From contig NZ_MTQO01000043.1 of the NCBI RefSeq assembly GCF_001984155.1, positions 248,001-312,000 on the forward strand: a DNA stretch of 64,000 nt. Direction: 5' to 3'. This document shows positions 20,516-33,893 of the stretch, piece after piece (position 1 is the first letter of the stretch; every line of letters begins with the position of its first letter). The notes under the pieces were generated by a model that was not told the DNA's origin, did no database searches, and was given only the letters and a program-made list of their open reading frames with translations. This stretch comes from Actinosynnema sp. ALI-1.44. GTDB lineage: Bacteria > Actinomycetota > Actinomycetes > Mycobacteriales > Pseudonocardiaceae. Made by a program: the position numbers and the translations under genes.

Positions 20516-22741
20516 ATGGCTGACATCCGAATCCGGGGCGCCCGGACCAACAACCTGAAGTCGCTCGACGTCGACGTCCCCCGGGGGCAGGTCGTGGTGT
20601 TCGTCGGACTGTCGGGCTCGGGCAAGTCGTCGCTGGTGTTCGACACCATCGCGGCCGAGGCCGGGTACCAGCTCACCGAGACCTTCCCGCCGTTCACGCG
20701 CAACCGGCTGCCGAAGTGGTCGCGGCCCGACGTCGGCGAGATCGACGGGCTGTCCCCGGTCGTCGTGATCGACCAGCGGCGGCTCGGCGGCAACGCCCGC
20801 TCGACGGTCGGCACGATCACCGACGCGTGGACGTACCTGCGGCTGCTGTTCTCCCGCGTGAGCACGCCACACGTCGGCGAGTCGAACCACTTCTCGTTCA
20901 ACGACCCGGCGGGCATGTGCGAAACGTGCTCGGGGCTGGGCGAGGTCGTGGCCAGTGCCGTCGACCGGTTCGTCGACTTGGACAAGTCGTTGAAGGACGG
21001 CGCGATCCTGCTGCCCGGCGCGGGCAACGGCGGTTACTGGTACGCCCAGTACGCCGACATCGGCACGTTCGACGCCGACACGCCGTTGCGTGACTGGACC
21101 CAGGCCGAGCGGGACGCGTTGCTGTACGGCGGCGAGTACGCCGCGCGCCTCGGCGAGAGGGCGCCCAAGGACTACGAGGGCATCGTCGAACGGTTCGAAC
21201 GGATCTACCTGCACACCTCTGACAGCTTGTCCGACCGCAAGAAGGAAGTCATCGCGCGGTTCACCCGGTCCGAGGTGTGCGCGGACTGCCAAGGCGACCG
21301 GCTCAACAAAGCCGCCCGGACGGCGACAGTGCTCGGCCACACCATCGGCGAGATGTCCCGCATGGAGATCAGCGAACTGGCCGACCTGGTGGCGGACGTG
21401 ACCGACGCGCAGGTGGCGCCGGTCGTGGCGGCGTTGACGGACAGGCTGGCCGCGATGGTCACGATCGGGCTCGGCTACCTGCACCTCGGCCGCCCCACCA
21501 CGACGCTGTCCGGCGGCGAGTCGCAGCGGATCAAGACCGTGAAACACCTGGGCAGCAGCCTGATCGAGATGCTGTACGTGTTCGACGAGCCCACCGTCGG
21601 CCTGCACCCGCACGACGTCTCGTCGATGACGACCCTGCTCAACCAGCTGCGGGACAAGGGAAACAGCGTGCTGGTGGTCGAGCACGACCCGGCGGTGATG
21701 GCGATCGCCGACCAGATCGTCGAAGTGGGGCCCCGTGCGGGTGAGCAGGGCGGTGAACTCGTGTTCCAGGGCACGTTCGCCGAACTGCGTGAGGCCGACA
21801 CGCCCACCGCCGCCGCACTGGCCCAGGATCGGTCCATCAAGGACAGTCCGCGCACAGCGCGCGGGACCATCAAGGTCACCAACGCCACCCGCAACAACCT
21901 CAAGAACGTCACCGCGGACGTCCCGGCCGGTGTGATGACCGTGCTCACCGGCGTCGCGGGCTCGGGGAAGTCGAGCCTCGCGGCCGAGCTCGTCGCCCAG
22001 CACGACGCCGTCGTGATCGACCAGAAACCCGTCAGCACGAACCGCCGCTCCACACCGATCACGTACACCGGCATCGCCACGCCCATCCGGAAGCTGTTCG
22101 CGCGCCGCAACAACGTCTCGGTCGGCCTGTTCAGCGCCAACTCCGAGGGCGCGTGCCCCGACTGCGACGGGCTCGGCGTCATCTACACCGACCTGGCGTT
22201 CATGGACGGCCAGGAAACGGTGTGCCAGACGTGCCAGGGACGGCGGTTCACGCCGGACGTGTTGCGACACAAGGTCGACGGGCTGTCCATCGCCGACGTC
22301 GACGACCTCACTATCGCCGCGGCCATCGAACGGCTGCCGGACGCGGGGATCAGCAAGGCGTTGCGGCACCTGGACGAGGTCGGCCTCGGCTACCTGCGGC
22401 TCGGCCAGCCGCTGAGCACGTTGTCAGGTGGCGAGTGCCAGCGCGTCAAGATCGCCAAGGAGTTGCGCGAGGCCGTCAGCCCGACGCTGTACGTGCTCGA
22501 CGAGCCCACGACAGGGCTGCACCTGAGCGACATCGACACTTTGCTCGGCGTGCTCGACAACCTCGTCGATCGAGGGCACACCGTTGTCGTCATCGAGCAC
22601 AACCTCGACGTGATCCGGCAGGCGGACTGGCTGATCGACCTGGGACCGGGCCCCGGCAGGCACGGCGGGCAGATCCTGTACCAGGGCCCGGTCGGCGACA
22701 TCAGCGGCACCGCGACAGCGGAGGCGTTGCGGGGGAAGTGA
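20516..22741 (+). CDS. Short UvrA paralogue (excinuclease ATPase-like)
   Basis: A 741-residue tandem ABC ATPase; true UvrA is about 950. Both halves are complete: Walker A GLSGSGKSS and GVAGSGKSS, signatures LSGGESQRIK and LSGGECQRVK, and four CxxC pairs (CETCSG, CADCQG, CPDCDG, CQTCQG) for zinc. The UvrB-binding and part of the insertion domain appear shortened. Such class II UvrA-like proteins (DrrC-type) are often drug-resistance or DNA-lesion-release factors rather than housekeeping repair enzymes. It is divergent from a WYL regulator, a regulator class often linked to DNA damage or foreign-compound stress. Confidence 0.92.
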   Translation: MADIRIRGARTNNLKSLDVDVPRGQVVVFVGLSGSGKSSLVFDTIAAEAGYQLTETFPPFTRNRLPKWSRPDVGEIDGLSPVVVIDQRRLGGNARSTVGTITDAWTYLRLLFSRVSTPHVGESNHFSFNDPAGMCETCSGLGEVVASAVDRFVDLDKSLKDGAILLPGAGNGGYWYAQYADIGTFDADTPLRDWTQAERDALLYGGEYAARLGERAPKDYEGIVERFERIYLHTSDSLSDRKKEVIARFTRSEVCADCQGDRLNKAARTATVLGHTIGEMSRMEISELADLVADVTDAQVAPVVAALTDRLAAMVTIGLGYLHLGRPTTTLSGGESQRIKTVKHLGSSLIEMLYVFDEPTVGLHPHDVSSMTTLLNQLRDKGNSVLVVEHDPAVMAIADQIVEVGPRAGEQGGELVFQGTFAELREADTPTAAALAQDRSIKDSPRTARGTIKVTNATRNNLKNVTADVPAGVMTVLTGVAGSGKSSLAAELVAQHDAVVIDQKPVSTNRRSTPITYTGIATPIRKLFARRNNVSVGLFSANSEGACPDCDGLGVIYTDLAFMDGQETVCQTCQGRRFTPDVLRHKVDGLSIADVDDLTIAAAIERLPDAGISKALRHLDEVGLGYLRLGQPLSTLSGGECQRVKIAKELREAVSPTLYVLDEPTTGLHLSDIDTLLGVLDNLVDRGHTVVVIEHNLDVIRQADWLIDLGPGPGRHGGQILYQGPVGDISGTATAEALRGK

Positions 22742-23614: not shown

Positions 23615-23637
23615 GCGGGTGTGTCCTCGACACCCGC
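23615..23637 (+). promoter_or_regulatory. Leader hairpin upstream of the glucanase gene
   Basis: GCGGGTGT (23615-23622) and ACACCCGC (23630-23637) form a perfect 8-bp stem with a 7-nt loop, 38 bp before the glucanase start. A TTGACT (23533-23538) could be its -35. The hairpin has no following T-run, so an operator or mRNA-stabilising leader is as likely as an attenuator. Confidence 0.4.
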
Positions 23638-23674
23638 TGAATCACCCTGCCCGCACAACAGAACAGAGGACACC

Positions 23675-26600
23675 ATGCACCGTAAGCAGCGTCGCTTGCG
23701 CCTGCTCAGCGGCATCCTCGCGGCCGGACTGCTGGCCGCGGGCATCGCCGCGACCCCGGCAGCGGCCGCAGGCCCCAACCTGTCGCTCGGCAAGCTGGCC
23801 GCGGCGAGCGGGACCCAAGGCGGGTTCCCGGCAGTCGCCGTCAACGACGGAAACACCCAGACCTATTGGGAGAGCACGAACAACACCCTTCCGCAGTGGG
23901 TGCGGATCGACCTCGGCGCCAGCGTCAGCGTCAACCAGGTGGTGCTCAGACTCCCCAGCTCGTGGGGCGCCCGCACACAGACCCTCAGTGTGCAGGGCAG
24001 TGGCGACGGCACCGGCTTCACCACGCTGTCGCCATCGGCGAGCCGTCTGTTCACGCCGTCCTCGGCCAACGCCGTGACCATCGACTTCGACGCCACGACT
24101 GTCCGATACGTACGCGTGCACGTCACGGGCAACACCGGCTGGCCTGCCGCGCAGTTGTCGGAGCTGGAGATCTACGGCACCGACGGCGACCCGCCGCCCG
24201 GCGGGGGAGAGGCCAACCTGGCCGCGGGCAAACCGATCGAGGCCAACTCGTCCGTGCACGGCTTCGTCGCGGCCAACGCCAACGACAACAACGTCGGCAC
24301 GTACTGGGAGTCCGCCGGGTACGACGGCGCGCTGACGGTCAAGCTCGGCTCGAACGCCGACGTCAGCTCGGTGGTCGTCAAGCTGAACCCGGATCCGGTC
24401 TGGGGACCGCGCACCCAGACGCTCGAAGTCCTCGGCCGCGAGCAGTCAGCGACCTCGTTCACCTCGCTGAAAGCCTTGGCGCAGTATGCGTTCAACCCGT
24501 CGTCCGGCAACACGGCGACCATCCCGGTGACGGGCCGCGTCGCGGATCTGCGGCTGCGGTTCACCGCCAACACCGGCGCACCGGGTGGTCAAGTCGGTGA
24601 GCTGCAGGTGCTGGGCACGGCCTCGCCCAACCCGGACCTGACGGTCTCGGCGCTGTCCTGGGCTCCCGCGTCGCCGTCGGAAACCGACGCGATCACGGTT
24701 CACGCGACTGTTCGGAACACCGGTCCGGCGGCAGCGGGCGCCACCACGGTCAACGTCAGCATCGCTGGTGTTGTCGCAGGCAGCGCCCCTGTCGGAGGCC
24801 TCGCCGCGGGTGCGTCGGCCACGGTCAGTGTTGACGTCGGCAGGCGCCCGATGGGCAGCTACAGCGTCTCGTCGGTCGTCGACCCCACGAACGCAATTGT
24901 TGAACAGAACAACGACAACAACAGCCTGACGGCGCCGTCGCAGCTCGTCGTGGCTCAGGCACCAGGCCCTGACCTGCGGATCACCGCGATCACCGCCAGC
25001 CCACCCAACCCTGCCGTGGGTGCGCAGGTCACGTTCTCCGTGACGGTCGACAACCGAGGGACGACCGCCACTGGCGCGACCACGGTGACGCGTCTGACGG
25101 TCGGCAGCACGACGTTGAACACCAACACGGCGTCGATCGCGGCAGGGGCGACGGTCACCGTGCCTGTCTCGGGTAGTTGGACCGCCACCAACGGCGGCGC
25201 CACGATCACCGCGACCGCCGACGCGACCAGCGTCGTCGCCGAGACCAACGAGGCGAACAACTCGTTGTCCAAGTCGATCGTCGTCGGGCGCGGCGCCGCG
25301 GTGCCGTACGTTGAATACGAGGCGGAAGCCGCCAACTACCAGGGCGTGTTGTTGCAGACGGACCCGCTGCGGACGTTCGGGCACACCAACTTCGCCACGG
25401 AGTCCTCAGGTCGCCAGTCCGTGCGGCTCAACAACACCGGCCAGTTCGTCGAGTTCACGTCGACCAACGCGGCGAACTCGATCGTGGTCCGCAACTCGAT
25501 CCCGGACGCGCCGGGCGGCGGTGGGATCGACGCGACGATCAGCTTGTACGTCAATGGGGCCTTCACGCAGAAGCTGTCGCTCTCGTCGAAGCACAGCTGG
25601 CTGTACGGGACCACCGACGACCCGGAGGGCCTGACGAACTCGCCGCAGTCCGACGCGCGCAGGCTGTTCGACGAGTCGCACGCGCTGCTGTCCACTTCAT
25701 ACCCGCCGGGAACGAAGTTCAAGCTCCAACGGGACTCCGGTGACACGGCGGCGTTCTACGTGATCGACATGATCGACCTGGAGCAGGTCGCGCCGCCCGC
25801 GAGCCAGCCCGCCGGGTGCACGTCGATCACCTCGTACGGCGCGATCGCGGGAGACGGCATCGACGACGCGGCCGCGATCCAGCGCGCGGTGACCGACGAC
25901 CAGAACGGTGTGATCGACTGCGTGTGGATCCCCGCGGGGCAGTGGCGGCAGGAGCAGAAGATCCTGACCGACGACCCGCTCAACCGCGGCCAGTACAACC
26001 AGGTCGGCATCAGCAACGTGACGATCAAGGGTGCCGGTATGTGGCACTCGCAGCTGTACTCGCTGATCGAGCCGCAGAACGCGGGCGGGATCAACCACCC
26101 GCACGAAGGCAACTTCGGCTTCGACATCGACAGGAACGTGCAGATCTCGGACATCGCGATCTTCGGCTCCGGCCGGATCAGGGGAGGCGGTGGAGCCGAG
26201 GGCGGCGTCGGCCTCAACGGCCGCTTCGGCACCGGGACCAAGATCAGCAACGTCTGGATCGAGCACGCCAACGCGGGTGTCTGGGTCGGCAGGGACTTCG
26301 ACAACATCCCCGAGCTGTGGGGACCGGCCGACGGACTGGAGTTCAGCGGCATGCGGATCCGCGACACCTACGCGGACGGCATCAACTTCACCAACGGAAC
26401 CCGCAACTCCAAGGTGTTCAACTCCTCGTTCCGCACGACGGGAGACGACTCGCTGGCGGTGTGGGCCAACAGGTACGTCAAGGACCCGGCGGTGGACATC
26501 GCACACGACAACAGCTTCGTCAACAACACGATCCAGTTGCCGTGGCGTGCCAACGGCGTGGCCGTCTACGGCGGCTACGCCAACAAGATCGAGAACAACC

Positions 26601-27031
26601 TGGTGTACGACACGATGAACTACCCGGGCATCATGCTGGCGACAGACCACGATCCGCTGCCGTTCAGCGGCCAGACGCTGATCGCGGGCAACGGTCTGTA
26701 CCGCACGGGCGGAGCTTTCTGGGGAGAGGCCCAGAAGTTCGGTGCGATCACCCTTTTCGCCCAGAACAGGGATATCACCGGCGTGACGATCCGTGACACG
26801 GAAATCGTGGACTCGACCTACGACGGCATCCAGTTCAAGGGCGGCGGCGGAACCATGCCGAACGTGGCCATCACCGGCGTCCGAATCGACAAGTCGAACA
26901 ACGGAGCCGGAATCCTGGCCCAAGGCAGCGCACGGGGAAGCGCCACGCTGAACTCCGTGACGATCACGAACTCGGCGCAGGGCAACGTGGTGGTGGAACC
27001 GGGTTCCAGCTTCACTGTCACAGGCGGTTAA
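23675..27031 (+). CDS. Secreted GH87-type alpha-1,3-glucanase (mycodextranase-like)
   Basis: A 1118-residue exported protein starting at MHRKQRR with GAGGA 4 bp upstream and a Sec signal peptide ending near PAAAAG (about 32). Two discoidin (F5/8C) domains (about 33-168 and 178-312, each starting NLxxGK) are followed by two CARDB/Ig-like domains (about 320-540), a CBM6/35-like module starting [12 protein letters not shown] (546-715), and a right-handed beta-helix catalytic domain to the C terminus. Asp901 in YADGIN and Asp924-Asp925 in GDDSLA have the same spacing (23, 24) as the three catalytic Asp I recall for the GH87 enzyme Agl-FH1. It probably attacks fungal cell-wall alpha-1,3-glucan. 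A strong terminator follows. Confidence 0.85.
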
Positions 27032-27039
27032 CGCGGTTC

Positions 27040-27081
27040 GAGGTGCCTGTGCGCACGGAATGCGTGCGCACAGGCCACCTC
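27040..27081 (+). terminator. Hairpin terminator after the glucanase gene
   Basis: Left arm 27040-27056 (GAGGTGCCTGTGCGCAC) pairs with 27064-27081 through 17 bp and one bulged C, with a 7-nt loop. It begins 9 bp after the glucanase stop and is followed by CTTT. It ends just before the promoter of the caspase gene and insulates the two. Confidence 0.8.
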
Positions 27082-27091
27082 TTTGCGATGC

Positions 27092-27107
27092 TAGGCTGTC
27101 GCGCGTG
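27092..27107 (+). promoter_or_regulatory. -10 box; probable leaderless start of the caspase gene
   Basis: TAGGCT (27092-27097) is a typical actinobacterial -10 hexamer. Transcription starting 7-8 nt downstream would begin at the GTG (27105-27107) itself, and no Shine-Dalgarno precedes that codon. Leaderless mRNAs are common in actinomycetes. Confidence 0.5.
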
Positions 27108-28235
27108 TCAGGCATCGGTGGTGCACGCGTTCTTCCTGATCCACGCGCCTCCCGCGCCGTCATAATGGGTACGAGTTCGTACGACCACCTGCCGAACCTG
27201 CCTGCGGTCGCCGCCAATGTCGACGCGCTGGTCCGTTGTTTTTCCGACAGTGAGCTCTGGGGTGTCGATCAGCGCAACATCAGCGCTGTCAACAACCCCA
27301 GAACCCATTCGGACATGCTCGACCCCATCCACACGGCAGCGGAGGACGCTGCCGACACCCTGCTGATCTACTATTCGGGGCACGGCCTGCTCGACCGGCG
27401 CACCAATCTCCAACTGGCGTTGTCGGGGTCGATTCCCGGACGATTCCACACGGCCACGCTGTACGACTGGATCCGTGACGCCATCATCGACAGCCCGGCC
27501 CGGCGGCGGATCGTCATCCTCGACTGCTGCTACAGCGGGCGCGCGCTCGGAACGATGTCCGGCTCCGAGGTGGCCGATGAAGCCGAGGCAGAGGGAACGT
27601 TCTTGCTCGCCGCGTCCGCGGAGAACAAACGGGCCCTCGCGCCGCCCGGCGAGAAATACACCGCGTTCACCGGGGAACTGGTGAAACTCCTGCAGCAGGG
27701 CGATCCGCAAGGGCCGCAACTGTGGGATCTCAATTCCCTGTACCGGTTGACCAGAGCGGCGCTGCGGGCGAAATCCCGGCCCCAGCCCCAGAAACGCGAC
27801 CGCAATACCGCGGGGGAACTCCCACTGGCCCGAAACCGCGCGTGGCTGACCAGCCCGCGCTGGCCCGAGGTGGAGCCCCCGGTCCTCGACTGGACCCCAC
27901 CGCCCATCGCAGAGCGGACAGCACCTGCGGCCAATGCCCAACGGCCGAGCCCGGCGACTCCGCAGAGACTGTACAAGTACGTCGCCCCGGAAGCCGTGCG
28001 TAGCGCAACCTTCGCCAAAGCTCGTCTGGGCAAAAGGGGATACAACGAGGAGGAGGTCGATGAGTTCCTCGAATTCGTGGCGACTGAGCTGAGAAACCCG
28101 AAAACCAAGCTCAAGGCTACCGATGTGCACAATGTCGCGTTCGGTAGGCCGCCTACGGGCAAGCGGGGTTACAACGAGAACGAGGTGGACACCTTCCTCG
28201 ACTTGGTCGAGAAACAGCTGCGCGCCTTCGAATGA
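27105..28235 (+). CDS. Caspase-like protease (C14, EACC1-type) with two C-terminal DivIVA domains
   Basis: A 376-residue protein. The start is GTG 27105 (VSGIGG...), just after a -10 box; a longer in-frame start at 27060 lies in the terminator. Residues ~15-240 are a caspase-like p20/p10: [17 protein letters not shown] with catalytic His93, and ILDCCYSG with the nucleophile Cys142, matching the EACC1-associated caspase type of actinobacteria. After a Pro-rich linker (about 250-295) come two copies of the DivIVA/Wag31 N-terminal domain: residues ~298-329 with [17 protein letters not shown], and ~340-374 with DVHNVAF...[18 protein letters not shown]. DivIVA domains bind negatively curved membrane at poles and septa, so the protease is probably tethered there. 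It is convergent with the XRE gene (7-bp gap). Confidence 0.88.
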
Positions 28236-28242
28236 CCGCCCG

Positions 28243-29190
28243 TCACGACCATTCCCACTGCACCCCGACGATCCCCGGCCGGACGTCGGAAGCGTAAAGG
28301 TGCACCACGCGGTTGCGCTGGCACGGCAGAGGGCGGGTCTCGGTGGGCTCAACGCCCCACTTGCTGCTCTGGAAGGCGTGCATCCGCACGGGGACCGCGT
28401 CGGCGTGGAACACGACCCGCATCAGGTAGTTCCGGCATGGCGCGCGGAACGCCTTGTAGTAGTGGTCGCCGGGCTCCGGGCGTGGGAGGTCGCGGGTGAA
28501 CCGCTGCTCGAACGTCAGGAAGTGCACATCACCCCGGTTGAGCGCGTGGTCGAACAGCAGTTCCGCGACCAGGTACCCGGCGTCGTCGTCCAGCCTCGTA
28601 CGACCGAGGCGGCAGCCGTCGCCGGGGTACACCTCCGGTTGGTTGCCGTCCTCGGTGCGGTAGAAGATCACGCACCGGTCCAGGCCGTCCACCAATGCCG
28701 ACAGGGTCAGGCGCACTTCCACCGTGCGCATCAGGCCCGCGCTGTCGAACACCACCCGGTCCTCGATGTTGAGCCAGGACCACCGCTGCCGGTCGAGCAG
28801 TTCCGCGTCCGTCAGGATCCGGGTCAGCCTGTCGTGGTCGTCGAAGATCGCGCCGTGCGGCACCGCGCCGGGGACGTGGCCCAGCCAGCGCCCGCGTGGA
28901 CGGCGCGGCCCGAGGAGTTGGACGAGTGCGTCCGGGGTGAGGCCGAGGATCTCCTCGATGGCGTGTACCGCGTGCACCGATTCGGGTCGCTCCGGGCGGC
29001 TGCGCCCGGTCTGCCAGTTGCTCAGGCTCGACGCGCTGACCTGGATGCCTCTGGCGGACAGGTGGTACGCCAGCCTGTCCAGGCTCAGACCGCTGGACCG
29101 GACCGCTGTCCTCAGCGCCAGTTCGAACGGGCCCGACCGCAGGATCCCGGCCAGCTCCCGGTCTTCGAGGCGGTTGCGGACACGGGTCAT
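28243..29190 (-). CDS. XRE-type HTH regulator with unknown C-terminal domain
   Basis: A 315-residue protein. Residues ~20-85 are a Cro/CI-type helix-turn-helix (LDRLAYHLSARGIQVSASSL, then SNWQTGRSRPERPES). The C-terminal ~220 residues (from WLGHVPGAVPHGAIF) resemble a beta-rich sensory domain shared by many uncharacterised actinomycete XRE proteins; I cannot name a ligand. It is divergent from the subtilisin-like protease, and two direct repeats in the shared promoter, 20 bp apart, are likely binding sites. Confidence 0.82.
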   Translation of the reverse strand: MTRVRNRLEDRELAGILRSGPFELALRTAVRSSGLSLDRLAYHLSARGIQVSASSLSNWQTGRSRPERPESVHAVHAIEEILGLTPDALVQLLGPRRPRGRWLGHVPGAVPHGAIFDDHDRLTRILTDAELLDRQRWSWLNIEDRVVFDSAGLMRTVEVRLTLSALVDGLDRCVIFYRTEDGNQPEVYPGDGCRLGRTRLDDDAGYLVAELLFDHALNRGDVHFLTFEQRFTRDLPRPEPGDHYYKAFRAPCRNYLMRVVFHADAVPVRMHAFQSSKWGVEPTETRPLPCQRNRVVHLYASDVRPGIVGVQWEWS

Positions 29191-29219
29191 GGCGGTCCAT
29201 CCTCTCGCTCAGCCACAGT

Positions 29220-29249
29220 ATTGGCCGGTCGTCCACGGAATTGGCCGGT
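29220..29249. promoter_or_regulatory. Two direct repeats ATTGGCCGGT, 20 bp apart
   Basis: ATTGGCCGGT occurs at 29220-29229 and 29240-29249, exactly two helical turns apart on the same face of the DNA. It lies in the 140-bp gap between the XRE regulator and the protease gene, about 30-60 bp upstream of the regulator start. This spacing suits two dimers of the adjacent HTH protein. Confidence 0.5.
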
Positions 29250-29330
29250 GCGGGTACCGTGCCGTTCTCCGGGGTGAACGACCTCCCTAGGCTCAGTGGC
29301 CCCTGCAGTTTGTACCCATTGGAGCCGGAG

Positions 29331-30488
29331 ATGCGTAAGCGACTGTTGGCGGCTGTTTTCGCCGTGGCGACGGGAGTCACCTTGGCACCGGGCGGGTCCG
29401 CCGCCGCAACGGATGTCACTGCGGACGACACCGCACGCTACATAGTGGTGCTCAAGGACGGCCATTCCTTGGCGTCGAAGATGCCCACCGGCGTGGTGGT
29501 CCGCAAACGTTTCGACGCGATCGGTGGGTTCTCGGCCGACTTGTCCCGCGACGAGGTCGAGCGCCTGCGCCGCGACCCCGCTGTCGCGTTCGTCCAGCAG
29601 AACCAGGTGCACCGGATGGAGGCCGCCCCGGCCGAGGCGCACGCCGCCGCGCCTTGGCAGCTGGACCGGATCGACCAGCGGAACCTGCCGCTCGACGGCA
29701 CGTTCGCCCCGTCCGGCAGCGGTGCGGGCGTCGACGTGTACGTCGTGGACAGTGGAGTGCGCACGACGCACCGCGAGTTCGAGGGCCGAGCCAAAAGCGT
29801 GTACAACACAGTCGGCGACGGCAACGGCACCACCGACTGCGCGGGCCACGGCACGTTCGTCGCCAGCCACATCGCGGGCAGGACGTACGGGGTGGCCAAG
29901 AAAGCCACCATCAAGGCGGTCCGGGTGCTCAAGTGCGACAATTCCGGCACCACGGAGGACATGGCCGACGGCATGAACTGGACGGCGCTCAACGCCCCGG
30001 CCGGGTCGGTGGTGAACGTCAGCCTGCAGAGCTCGGGCGGGCGCACCGACCGCGTGCTCGACGCCGCCGCCAAGAAGATGGTGGACAACGGCATGCTGGT
30101 GGTGCTGATCGCGGGCAACTTCGACAAGGGCGACTGCCAGAACTCGCCCAAGGACTCCCGGGCGATCATCATGGGAGCCACGACCAGGACGGACAGCCGC
30201 AACACCGGCACCAACGCCTCCAGCTACGGCAGTTGTGTGACCGCGTTCGCCCCAGGCGCGAACGTGGCAGGTGCGGGCAAGTCCAGCGACACCGCTGTGC
30301 AGTCAGGCTGGTATGGCACGTCGTTCGCCGCACCGCTGGCGTCCGGAGCGGTGGCCGTCGCCAAGGCAGCCAACCCGCACCTGACCTTGGCGCAGGCCAA
30401 GCAGTTGATCGTCAACTCGTCGACGAAGAACGTGCTCAGCAACGTCGGCAGCGGTTCGTCGAACCGGCTGTTGTACGTCGGTAGCTGA
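29331..30488 (+). CDS. Secreted subtilisin-like serine protease (S8, proteinase K type)
   Basis: A 385-residue pre-pro-protease. It has a Sec signal peptide (MRKRLLAAVFAVATGVTLAPGGSAAA), then an inhibitor I9 propeptide (YIVVLKDG...VAFVQQNQ, to about 105), then the peptidase. The catalytic triad is Asp140 (YVVDSGV), His173 (CAGHGTFVASHIAG) and Ser331 (GTSFAAPLASG), with the oxyanion Asn in LIAGNF. The layout and length match the alkaline/proteinase K subfamily of actinomycetes. Start ATG 29331 was chosen because it opens the signal peptide. It is followed by a perfect bidirectional terminator. Confidence 0.95.
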   Translation: MRKRLLAAVFAVATGVTLAPGGSAAATDVTADDTARYIVVLKDGHSLASKMPTGVVVRKRFDAIGGFSADLSRDEVERLRRDPAVAFVQQNQVHRMEAAPAEAHAAAPWQLDRIDQRNLPLDGTFAPSGSGAGVDVYVVDSGVRTTHREFEGRAKSVYNTVGDGNGTTDCAGHGTFVASHIAGRTYGVAKKATIKAVRVLKCDNSGTTEDMADGMNWTALNAPAGSVVNVSLQSSGGRTDRVLDAAAKKMVDNGMLVVLIAGNFDKGDCQNSPKDSRAIIMGATTRTDSRNTGTNASSYGSCVTAFAPGANVAGAGKSSDTAVQSGWYGTSFAAPLASGAVAVAKAANPHLTLAQAKQLIVNSSTKNVLSNVGSGSSNRLLYVGS

Positions 30489-30493
30489 CTCCG

Positions 30494-30530
30494 ACCGGTT
30501 GGGGCCGCACGGCATGCGGCCCCAACCGGT
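30494..30530. terminator. Bidirectional terminator, 15-bp perfect stem
   Basis: ACCGGTTGGGGCCGC (30494-30508) pairs perfectly with 30516-30530 around a 7-nt loop. It lies between the convergent protease and CMD genes and starts 5 bp after the protease stop, so it can serve both. Confidence 0.85.
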
Positions 30531-30534
30531 GTTC

Positions 30535-31440
30535 CTACGCGAGCGTGTGTTCGATCCGCTCGATGGCGGTGATGGCGCCGTACGCGAACAGGTGCAGCAG
30601 GCAATGGTCCGTGTACTTGTCCGAGCGCCAGGTTTTGACGTCGGTCTCCGTGATCCGGCCGGGGGCCAGTCCGGCCAGGACAGCCAGCCGTGCACCGGGC
30701 TCGTCGACCGGGGTCGTGTCGCCACGGCTGATCGCGTCCTGGACGGTTTGCCGAGCTCGCTCCGAGAGCAGGAATCCGCCCCGCCGGGCCGCGTCACGCA
30801 GCGCGGCGTACGCGGGACCGGCAGGACTGTCTCCTGCCCATGTGGGAATGCCTTCTGTGGGAACGGAATCCAGCAGCGCGAGGCTCTCGCCGGGTTCGTG
30901 GTCCGCACGGATGGCACGGGCGATGGGGGCTCCGTCGAACGCCGAGCCGTCGCGCATCCCGCCAGGACGCAGGCCGGGGTCCAGCAGGATCGAGACAAGC
31001 CGGTTGACGAAGTGCAAGGCGAGTGCTGTTGCGACGTACTCCGGCGTGTCGCCGACGCTGAACGGCGCCGGGCCACCGTGCTGCGCCCAACGCACGAGTT
31101 CCTGGTTGCGTTCCACCGCGTCGGCCGGTGCGCCGGCGAGGTGCAGGAACACGGTGTGACCAGCGATGTCGTACTCGCATCCGTTGGTCCTGGACACCGA
31201 CACGGCAACGATTTCCTTGCGCCACCGGGGAACCGATCCGGACACGAGTGCTTCGCGCAGCAGCGCCCAGCACGGGGCCAGCAGTTCGGGGGCGGGCGAC
31301 AGCATCATCACCGCGGGGCCGATGGTGCTGAAGTCCCGATCGACCTGGTCGTAGACGGCCGCCACCGGTCCGGTGGCGGTGTTCGGGGAAACCGGCGTGA
31401 CGTGCCGGAAGACGTTTAACTCTGACACGCTGTCCAACAT
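30535..31440 (-). CDS. Carboxymuconolactone decarboxylase (CMD)-like protein
   Basis: A 301-residue protein. The start at MLDSVSELNVF (ATG 31440) lies 25 bp from the divergent TetR start; the longer frame overlaps that gene and is rejected. The central stretch RWRKEIVAVSVSRTNGCEYDIAGHTVFL follows the CMD/AhpD pattern, with C-x-x-D-x-x-x-H in place of the redox CxxC, so only the proximal Cys is kept. The remainder (about 150-301) is helical and looks like a second, diverged CMD-like repeat. It may be a peroxidase-like or ring-opening enzyme. It is presumably controlled by the divergent TetR through the operator between them. Confidence 0.7.
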   Translation of the reverse strand: MLDSVSELNVFRHVTPVSPNTATGPVAAVYDQVDRDFSTIGPAVMMLSPAPELLAPCWALLREALVSGSVPRWRKEIVAVSVSRTNGCEYDIAGHTVFLHLAGAPADAVERNQELVRWAQHGGPAPFSVGDTPEYVATALALHFVNRLVSILLDPGLRPGGMRDGSAFDGAPIARAIRADHEPGESLALLDSVPTEGIPTWAGDSPAGPAYAALRDAARRGGFLLSERARQTVQDAISRGDTTPVDEPGARLAVLAGLAPGRITETDVKTWRSDKYTDHCLLHLFAYGAITAIERIEHTLA

Positions 31441-31474
31441 AACCGCCTGCGTTAAGCTTGACAACGTGTCAGAG
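31420..31474. promoter_or_regulatory. Paired TetR-type operators overlapping both start codons
   Basis: Two copies of the dyad TGACA-N3-TGTC lie at 31423-31434 (second arm ends TGTCC) and 31459-31471 (perfect, TGACA-ACG-TGTCA). They sit in 15-bp arms, 31420-31434 and 31460-31474, that are inverse to each other with one mismatch. The left copy is inside the first codons of the CMD gene and the right copy covers the GTG of the TetR gene. One repressor could shut off both. Confidence 0.65.
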
Positions 31475-32047
31475 GTAATTCGGCGCAGGCGGCGCTCCGA
31501 CGCCGACCGGAGCGCGGGCTCGATCCTCAAGGCGGCCAAAGAAATCCTTGCGGGCCAACCGAACGCGAGTGTCGAGGAGATCGCCGACGCGGCCGCGGTC
31601 AGCAGGCAGACGGTGTACGCGCACTTCAAGTCCCGGGAGGGCCTGGTCAGTGCGGTGGTCGACGCGATCTCCGCCGAGACGGTCGCCGAAATGGCGGCCG
31701 TGGACTTGGCGGACGGCTCCGCGTCGGACGCGCTGGCCCGCCTTCTCGCCACCACCTGGGCCGCCACCAGCCGCTATTCGCTGCTGCTGCACTCGGCGGC
31801 GCTCGCCGTGCCGGATCCTTCGGCCGACCGGCGCCGGCACGTGCCGGTGGTCGACTACCTGGAGCAGGTGATCACCCGTGGCCAGGCGTCCGGGGAGTTC
31901 CACTGCGAGTCGTCGGCATGGTGGCTCGCCACGGCGGTCATCGCGCTCGGCCACGCCGCGGGCGAGGCCGTGGCCGCGGGCCGGTTGCCGGCGCGGGACG
32001 GCATGGCGACGCTGGTCGCGTCCGCACTGCGGCTGTGCCAGGCCTGA
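31466..32047 (+). CDS. TetR/AcrR family repressor
   Basis: A 193-residue regulator starting at GTG 31466 (VSEVIRRRRRSDADRS). Helix-turn-helix ILKAAKEILAGQPNASVEEI, then AAVSRQTVYAHFKSREGLVS. The C-terminal ligand domain is typical in length. The upstream in-frame extension would overlap the CMD gene completely and is rejected. It is divergent from the CMD gene with a pair of dyads in the 25-bp gap, and followed 74 bp later by an ABC exporter that it might also control. Confidence 0.93.
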   Translation: MSEVIRRRRRSDADRSAGSILKAAKEILAGQPNASVEEIADAAAVSRQTVYAHFKSREGLVSAVVDAISAETVAEMAAVDLADGSASDALARLLATTWAATSRYSLLLHSAALAVPDPSADRRRHVPVVDYLEQVITRGQASGEFHCESSAWWLATAVIALGHAAGEAVAAGRLPARDGMATLVASALRLCQA

Positions 32048-32121
32048 CGCGCCACCGATATTCGGTCGCTGTTTCGTTTCGTTACCGGCAGCATGGGCAG
32101 CTCGCTGTTGGAAGGGGAAGG

Positions 32122-33893
32122 ATGACAGCGCGCCGACAAGCGGTTTTCCTGGCAATACGGTACTACTGGTCGGAATTCAGCCGGTTGCGGCGGTTCTCGA
32201 TTCCCGCGATGCTGCTGCCGGCTCTGGGTAACACATGTCTCTACTACGTCGCGCCCTTGGTGGTGGCGCAGTTGGCCGGTCATCTGGCCGGCGGTGGGAC
32301 GGATGTCCTGTCCTATGTGGTTGTTTTCGCCGGGTTGCTGGTGTTCGCCGAGTTCGTGTGGCGAATCGGGATCCACTGCCTGAGCCGGGTGGACGGGCTG
32401 GGCGGGGAGAACCTCAGTGTGCTCGGGATGAACGCGTTGCTGGCCAAGGACGCGGCTTTCTTCCACGACAACTTCGCCGGTTCGCTGACCAAGCGGGTGC
32501 ACAGCTTCGCCTGGCGGTTCACCGACATCGCGGACACGATGTCGTTCAACGTCGTCGCCAACTTCGTTCCGCTCGGCTTCGCGTCCGTCGTGTTGTGGAA
32601 CTACCACCCTGTTCTCGTGCTGGTCCTCATCGGCATGATCACCGTGACCGGGTTCGTCGTCACACCGTTGGTCAAGCGGCGGCAGGCGATTGTGGACAAG
32701 CGGGAAGCCGCGATCGCGCGGGTCTCCGGCCACATCGCCGACAGCCTGACGAACATGGAGACCGTCCGGGCGTTCGCCGCCGAGCACAGCGAGGCCGTCG
32801 AACACCAGGCCAGGGTCCGGGAGCACCGGCGGCTGGCGATCCGGTCGTGGGACTACGCCAACCTCAGGATCGACGTCGTCGCCGCGCCGCTCTCGGTGCT
32901 GACCAACGTCCTTGGCCTGTACCTCGCGGTCAAGCTCGGCAACCTCGGTGTCGAGGGGGTCGTGGTGGCGTTCGCGTACTTCGCCAACGCCACGCGGATC
33001 ATGTTCGAGTTCAACCAGATCTACCGCAGACTGGAGAGCTCGCTCACCGAGGCGGCGCAGTTCACCGAGCTGCTGCTCGAGCCGCCGACCGTGCTCGACC
33101 CGGAAAACCCGGAGAAACTCCGGCCACCGCCGCCGACGTGCGGTTCGACAACGTGGTCTTCGCGCACTCGGGCACGTCGGAGCTGTTCACCGGGTTGACG
33201 CTGGCGGTGCCGAGCGGCACCAAGGTCGGGCTGGTCGGCCGGTCCGGCGGGGGCAAGAGCACGCTCACCAAGCTGTTGCTGCGCCTGATGGACATCGACA
33301 GCGGCCGCATCACCATCGGCGGCCAGGACATCAGCGCGCTGCGGCAGGCCGACCTGCGCGGCCTGATCGCCTACGTGCCACAGGAACCAGCGATGTTCCA
33401 CCGGACACTCCGGGAGAACATCGCCTTCGCCCGTCCCGGTGCGTCGGAGGAGGACGTCCTGCGCGCGGCGAAGATCGCGCACGTCACGGAGTTCGCGGCG
33501 GATCTGCCGGACGGGTTCGACACGCTCGTCGGTGAGCGCGGCGTGAAACTGTCCGGCGGGCAACGACAGCGCGTCGCACTGGCCAGAGCCGTCCTGCGCG
33601 ACGCGCCGATCCTGCTGCTCGACGAGGCGACGAGCGCACTGGACTCGGAGAGCGAAATCCTTGTCCAGCAGGCGCTCTGGCAGGTGATGGAAGGCCGGAC
33701 GGCACTGGTGGTCGCGCACCGGCTGAGCACGGTGGCCAAGATGGACCAGCTGGTCGTGCTCGACCGCGGCCAGATCGTCGAGCAAGGCAGCCACACGGAG
33801 TTGCTGGCGCTGAACGGCACCTACGCGCGGCTGTGGCAGCACCAGTCCGGCGGCTTCCTCGACGAGGACGCGGGCGAAGCGGTCAATCGATGA
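32122..33893 (+). pseudogene. ABC exporter (TMD-NBD half-transporter) with a frameshift
   Basis: The start is ATG 32122 with GGGGAAGG just upstream. From 32122 to about 33125 one frame encodes six membrane helices of an exporter TMD (ending [20 protein letters not shown]). At about 33125-33135 the protein continues one frame lower as [15 protein letters not shown] with a complete nucleotide-binding domain: Walker [36 protein letters not shown], and H-loop VAHRLSTV. A single missing base near CCACCGCCGCCG restores one ~590-residue exporter. Whether this is a real mutation, a sequencing error or recoding cannot be decided here. The 3' end overlaps the convergent P450 gene by 11 bp. Confidence 0.85.

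Follow-up and report, generated by a model that had tools for sequence, protein, structure and literature searches.

An EACC1-type caspase carrying a tandem pair of DivIVA N-terminal units in an Actinosynnema genome

The 64-kb stretch of DNA that we analyzed (hereafter the window) contains a gene for a stand-alone caspase of the EACC1 type, with no EACC1 partner found in the window; in its variable C-terminal part two DivIVA N-terminal units follow each other. We interpret the product as a caspase-type conflict or suicide protease that DivIVA-type units may station at septa and tips, an interpretation by analogy with known DivIVA proteins to which we assign a probability of about 0.45. EACC1-type caspases with variable C-termini have been published as conflict systems (PMC7159879, System 4). 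In the two-gene system described there a transmembrane EACC1 protein accompanies a constant N-terminal caspase (Kaur et al. 2020, PMC7159879), and as many as 50 different domains are reported at the C-termini of the caspases, where they are proposed to serve as effectors deployed by autoproteolysis. Judged by its sequence, the window protein adds a DivIVA C-terminus to these published proteins, without the EACC1 partner. The features of the gene and its surroundings are listed in Table 1.

Table 1. Positions, in window coordinates, of the caspase-DivIVA gene, its parts and its neighbors.
Feature	Position	Strand	Remarks
Upstream neighbor, alpha-1,3-glucanase-like protein	23621..27031	+	Five of the seven other genomes of the genus carry it at 87-90% identity
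Strong predicted hairpin	27040..27081	+	-44.1 kcal/mol, z -4.28; between the stop of the upstream gene and the GTG
Whole gene: EACC1-type caspase, linker, tandem DivIVA (DivI1A) units	27105..28235	+	376 aa, GTG start
Caspase domain (C14, EACC1-associated type), residues 16-223	27150..27773	+	NCBIfam; AlphaFold pLDDT mostly >90
Catalytic dyad, His93 (SGHG)	27381..27383	+	Invariant in 54 aligned sequences
Catalytic dyad, Cys142 (DCCYSG)	27528..27530	+	Invariant in 54 aligned sequences
Pro/Ala-rich linker	27861..27953	+	Low model confidence (AlphaFold)
DivI1A unit 1	27987..28091	+	TIGR03544, 39.8 bits; tip residue Leu308 at 28026-28028
DivI1A unit 2	28116..28220	+	TIGR03544, 43.2 bits; tip residue Thr351 at 28155-28157
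Convergent downstream neighbor, weak helix-turn-helix match	28243..29190	-	24 bits, below the Pfam cut-off of 27

The coordinates and frame assigned to the gene in the earlier note were confirmed: translation from the GTG to the stop gave an open reading frame with no internal stop. An in-frame ATG at 27060 would extend the product to 391 aa. Because this ATG lies inside the predicted hairpin, and because most of the relatives listed begin at about residue 9-10 of the window protein, the GTG at 27105 is the more likely start. The GTG follows 23 nt past the hairpin, which was not equaled in stability by any of 200 shuffled sequences and is a probable terminator of the upstream gene. That gene is not part of the system. 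The convergent downstream gene ends 7 nt from the caspase-DivIVA gene; its best match elsewhere in the genus is only 41% identical, and we found no evidence for its membership in the system. The upstream hairpin and the convergent neighbor suggest that the caspase-DivIVA gene is probably transcribed alone. A consensus scan found no promoter-like site upstream of it, and the leaderless-type promoter was not borne out as proposed, although a leaderless start is possible on sequence grounds. The earlier interpretation is partly supported: its domain identification is upheld, and the suicide or remodelling activity, storage at the division site and steady low expression that it proposed may be taken as hypotheses. 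Further upstream, window positions 20516-22738 encode an ABC-type ATPase that looks UvrA-like by eye and matches PADLOC mad3 (E 1e-60); as a paralogue its role may lie in resistance or repair and not in defence.

The N-terminal part of the protein has the complete C14 dyad that had been recognized from the sequence. It covers all 211 positions of the NCBIfam model caspase_w_EACC1 (NF047832) at 237.4 bits, with a cut-off of 140, and residues 17-228 match Pfam Peptidase_C14 (E 8.4e-15). Both dyad residues and Asp140, located two residues before Cys142, are invariant in the alignment, which comprised the window sequence and 53 of 60 homologues (L092, L096, L109, L134, L137, L140 and L141 were left out). 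In metacaspases and paracaspases an Asp at this position goes with cleavage after basic residues, and by that analogy the window caspase probably cleaves after basic residues as well. AlphaFold gave a confident caspase domain with 203 residues at a pLDDT of at least 90, and the 50 matches listed by Foldseek against the PDB included MALT1 paracaspase (best E 6.0e-11), caspases and metacaspases. A sequence search of solved structures with the caspase part returned no match at E 0.01. The sole match of the protein in PADLOC-DB was PDLC02987, 'caspase' (E 2.2e-5, positions 18-191 of 453).

The two DivIVA N-terminal domains proposed for the C-terminal part were likewise recovered. The repeats match DivIVA PF05103 at 33.3 bits, above the Pfam gathering score of 28, and the identification thereby withstands the profile test set for it in the earlier note; they match TIGR03544 (DivI1A) at 75.1 bits in two stretches, with an NCBIfam cut-off of 22. 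The second unit is Wag31-like, as had been noticed: it is 69% identical, over 39 aa, to the Wag31-like DivIVA of the same genome and matches the solved Wag31 domain 6lfa (E 4e-13); unit 1 is less Wag31-like. The resemblance to Wag31/DivIVA (PF05103, NF050102, 6lfa) lies in these two N-terminal units. Unlike those proteins, the window protein has short units, a Thr at the tip of unit 2 and an end directly after unit 2, without the long coiled coil of DivIVA; it scores 98.9 bits against the Wag31 equivalog NF050102, far below the cut-off of 260. The lack of a coiled coil and this low score led us to reject the description of the protein as just a DivIVA protein. The score against the DivIVA repeat protein model TIGR03543 was 38.3 bits, below the cut-off of 154.2.

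In the membrane-binding tip of DivIVA a hydrophobic residue (Phe17 or Ile18) is described as preceding basic residues; for Wag31 it is proposed that Ile18 and basic residues close to it point towards the membrane (PMC7340271). The tip of unit 1, Leu308-Gly-Lys-Arg, is still hydrophobic, and in unit 2 Thr351 stands at the position of Wag31 Ile18. A tally of the tip residue by motif match in 31 ORFs, which may include wrong-frame ORFs, gave I 26, F 15, L 7, P 4, A 3, R 3, V 2 and W 1, with T absent. AlphaFold built the DivIVA part as less certain helices (295-310/315-330 and 338-345/358-375), with block means of pLDDT of 48-76 in the full model and a mean of 54 when this part was folded alone from the single sequence.

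A home-built EACC1 profile, derived from 17 upstream ORFs of caspase loci, was run over all six frames of the 64-kb window and detected no EACC1 gene. All four of the upstream ORFs that were tested belong to PF19953, a family with two genes in the own genome, on contigs C32 and C51, and none on the contig of the window (C39). A canonical EACC1 pair was rejected since EACC1 was found neither in the window nor on its contig. Among relatives from named genomes the EACC1 gene adjoins the caspase in 61 of 80 (the best 80 of 110 loci), the 19 relatives lacking it being among the more distant ones, and of 29 further caspase loci from the family sample (L016-L044) 20 had an EACC1 match at some point in the locus and nine had none. 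The window protein has in common with the EACC1-associated caspases (PMC7159879; NF047832) the caspase subfamily, its N-terminal position, a variable C-terminal partner and an actinobacterial host, and it differs in having no EACC1 gene beside it or in the window. This does not set it apart within its own genome. Nine places there match the EACC1-type caspase model, five of them over the cut-off, and EACC1 was found beside none of the nine (L006-L014, window gene included; 1.5-kb flanks). The idea that the DivIVA units replace EACC1 is weakened by this result, since no EACC1 was found beside the other caspases of the genome either.

The sampled loci also showed what else EACC1-type caspases carry, including kinase-like, EF-Tu-like and maltose glucosyltransferase parts. 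Examples are a fused maltose alpha-D-glucosyltransferase-type domain at L008 (1474-3636) and the C-terminal half of EF-Tu at L018 (1459-2928). On contig C27 of the own genome (L009) a caspase-like protein has, by eye, an Hsp70-like part, and on contig C48 (L010, 1078-1953) an apparently truncated EACC1-type caspase covers model positions 1-141 of 211.

Small stand-alone proteins with a tandem DivI1A pair are common in the family, often with more than one per genome. These proteins, in the family and in relatives, resemble the window C-terminus in having a pair of units of about 34 residues at similar spacing. In other families of the order the pair is found together with a SnoaL-like domain (L289, 1498-2160, E 1.3e-8), with a NUDIX domain (L300, 964-1812, E 4.5e-8) or with transmembrane parts as judged by eye (L165, L290). 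All the other tandem proteins seen were either small and separate or fused in one of these ways, never to a protease. The pair appears from its occurrences to be a portable module, which favors an addressing or adaptor role for it, and a module that occurs alone or in varied fusions would fit a carrier better than a toxin. One literature search on tandem DivIVA domains yielded nothing, and the pairs are worth attention in their own right. In six loci of family genomes (L046, L050, L051, L052, L060, L064) two small genes, each with a tandem pair, lie adjacent to each other, and in the second of them the protein has a similar C-terminal tail, ALEH(S/T)H-x-R-(K/R)-P-x-WRR.

These stand-alone genes bear directly on the possibility that the pair is an effector. 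After self-cleavage by the caspase, the freed DivIVA pair would compete with Wag31/DivIVA for its partners and halt tip growth or division, an abortive growth arrest. Such a role would agree with the published scheme of a constant caspase and a variable C-terminal effector freed by autoproteolysis (PMC7159879), with the low-confidence linker between the two parts, and with the similarity of unit 2 to the genome's own Wag31, through which it could bind the same partners. However, as tandem DivI1A proteins are ordinary small stand-alone genes, the pair is probably not toxic by itself, and the EACC1 trigger gene was not found in the window. We consider the effector role rather unlikely.

The joining of this module to a caspase was seen once. 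A caspase ORF was present in 150 of the loci collected, of which seven correspond to the window gene, two (L239, L254) to a fragment in the sister genome G027 that is described below, and 141 to others (80 from named genomes, 57 from the genome sample and four from the own genome, where L010 and L011 look truncated). None of the 141 has a DivI1A unit in the same ORF, which distinguishes the window caspase from the other caspases sampled; the same profile recovered both units of the window gene, a positive control within the scan, and 18 of the 155 caspase ORFs are incomplete at a locus boundary. The scan of the named genomes (best 80 of 110 caspase loci) gave no C-terminal DivIVA match. TIGR03544 detected a Wag31-like gene in all eight genus genomes, and of its 24 rows only the two from the own genome lie in a fused gene. 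With absence defined as no second full-length match or neighboring pair of matches listed, no second fusion was present among the matches listed for the full protein in 200 family and 394 class genomes, or for the C-terminal part in 296 class, 390 family and 397 order genomes. The class, order and family samples overlap, and since these searches score part of the first-look candidates (nine of 61 for the own genome) they could miss a divergent second fusion.

Mobile elements gave a similar picture. The window protein had no tblastn match in 50,697 phage records; 43 plasmid records match the full protein, none covering 80% of it, and the C-terminal query matched two plasmid records, both from Tsukamurella. 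A phage- or plasmid-borne fusion was rejected on these results. A search of the literature at the level of main texts found no report of a caspase with a DivIVA C-terminus; supplementary tables could list such an architecture. The word 'DivIVA' does not occur in the main texts of PMC7159879, PMC8195603 and PMC3501461. Among the papers listed, two contain both 'DivIVA' and 'caspase' (PMC11220241 and PMC9815659), and their titles place them in pharmacology and in influenza with Streptococcus pneumoniae.

The surroundings of the gene differ between genomes of the genus. Window positions 27034-32050 form a variable interval, bounded by the glucanase gene and by a downstream block, both of them conserved. 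In all five genus genomes with the glucanase-like gene at 87-90% identity, similarity to the window begins again past this gene, from window positions 32,053-32,150 on. The interval measures 178, 604, 1717, 3627 and 3722 bases in these five genomes, two of which have common content, and about 5 kb in the window. In the sister genome G027 it contains 124 nt that are 88% identical to window positions 27444-27567, with a frame change. The fragment corresponds to the caspase core around the catalytic Cys and does not reach the DivIVA part; the same interval also has a 146-column, 84%-identical match to the neighboring S8 protease gene. In the other four intervals neither blastn with the window nor tblastn with the protein gave a match. 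The remnant at the same locus suggests that a caspase gene was probably there before the own genome (G000) and G027 split, and that the caspase gene probably predates the present assembly.

These findings bear on two further explanations. If an EACC1-type caspase met a tandem DivI1A gene by chance at a turnover-prone accessory locus, the fusion could be a passing one, with no selected function. That would agree with the single instance among the matches listed, with the varying interval of which G027 retains only a broken caspase fragment, and with a GC3 of 0.78 that is lower than in the two neighboring genes (0.89 and 0.89). The 376-codon frame is nevertheless intact and both domains and the catalytic residues are kept, where decay should have lost one of them, and we regard a neutral fusion as quite unlikely. 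It is very improbable that the gene is an assembly artefact that joins two genes. The earlier note had itself raised absence from related genomes together with an assembly join: the junction is indeed known from one assembly, with no second witness in another genome, but it lies in one open frame, with coding-like composition in the caspase part, the linker and the DivIVA part, inside a contig of 346,546 bp, and the caspase remnant occupies the same syntenic site in G027.

The placement of the protease at septa and tips, to which we assigned the probability given above, draws on Wag31 from C. glutamicum. The lipid-binding domain of that protein is reported to be necessary and sufficient for septal localisation, and still to localise with a triple mutation in its tip (2025 preprint PMC12393619). 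The proposed targeting to septum or pole is a fair reading of this domain. The accompanying proposal that tandem units raise membrane avidity is weaker reasoning, given Thr351 in place of Ile18 and the missing long coiled coil. Because the tip mutant localises and unit 2 has Thr351, septal recruitment through protein contacts seems the safer inference. The DivIVA units would then bring the protease to septa and growing tips mainly via the contacts that recruit the Wag31 lipid-binding domain, with a partial contribution from membrane binding through unit 1. The caspase would be activated by crowding at these sites or by a local damage or infection signal. It would then cleave itself and substrates in its vicinity, probably after basic residues, and the compartment or tip would be killed or sealed. 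In doing so the DivIVA units would perform the membrane placement that is proposed for transmembrane EACC1 in the canonical pair. Targeting, activation, substrate and outcome are all steps that we infer. The most specific form of this account, a suicide or conflict protease with its own septum or tip address, whose killing or sealing begins at cross-walls or tips and whose DivIVA pair assumes the membrane placement of the missing EACC1, is put forward tentatively, as a possibility that we rather doubt.

There is a precedent for such placement of a conflict system in C. glutamicum, where DivIVA gives the plasmid defence system MksBEFG its polar position (PMC10123090). It differs from the window protein in that an MksBEF complex and the MksG nuclease depend on DivIVA, and the part of that paper covered here mentions no fusion to a DivIVA domain. 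Alternatively, the DivIVA units could act as a decoy: by mimicking Wag31 they would detect an attack on the polar scaffold, such as one by a phage protein, and switch the caspase on. Unit 2 does resemble Wag31, and a Wag31-like protein is also encoded separately in the genome; the negative phage search counts against a decoy, as a weak test, and we judge this guard function improbable.

For targeting by the DivIVA units count the domain scores, the invariant dyad, the caspase-like model, the EACC1 gene not being found in the window, the portability of the DivI1A module, the reported septal placement of the Wag31 lipid-binding domain, the MksBEFG precedent and the published EACC1-type conflict systems with their variable C-termini. 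Against it count the second fusion that was not found, so that there is no conservation to show selection, and the absence of EACC1, which is not specific to the DivIVA form. The Thr at the tip of unit 2, the lack of a long coiled coil and the low confidence of the predicted DivIVA part count against it as well, as does the published scheme (PMC7159879), in which the C-terminal domains are described as effectors and not as anchors.

If the DivIVA units place the caspase, the protein would be a death-type protease of bacteria that carries its own address within the cell. A link would then exist between the EACC1 caspase systems of multicellular bacteria and the machinery of septa and tips, and initiation of programmed death at cross-walls or tips of filamentous actinomycetes would become directly testable.
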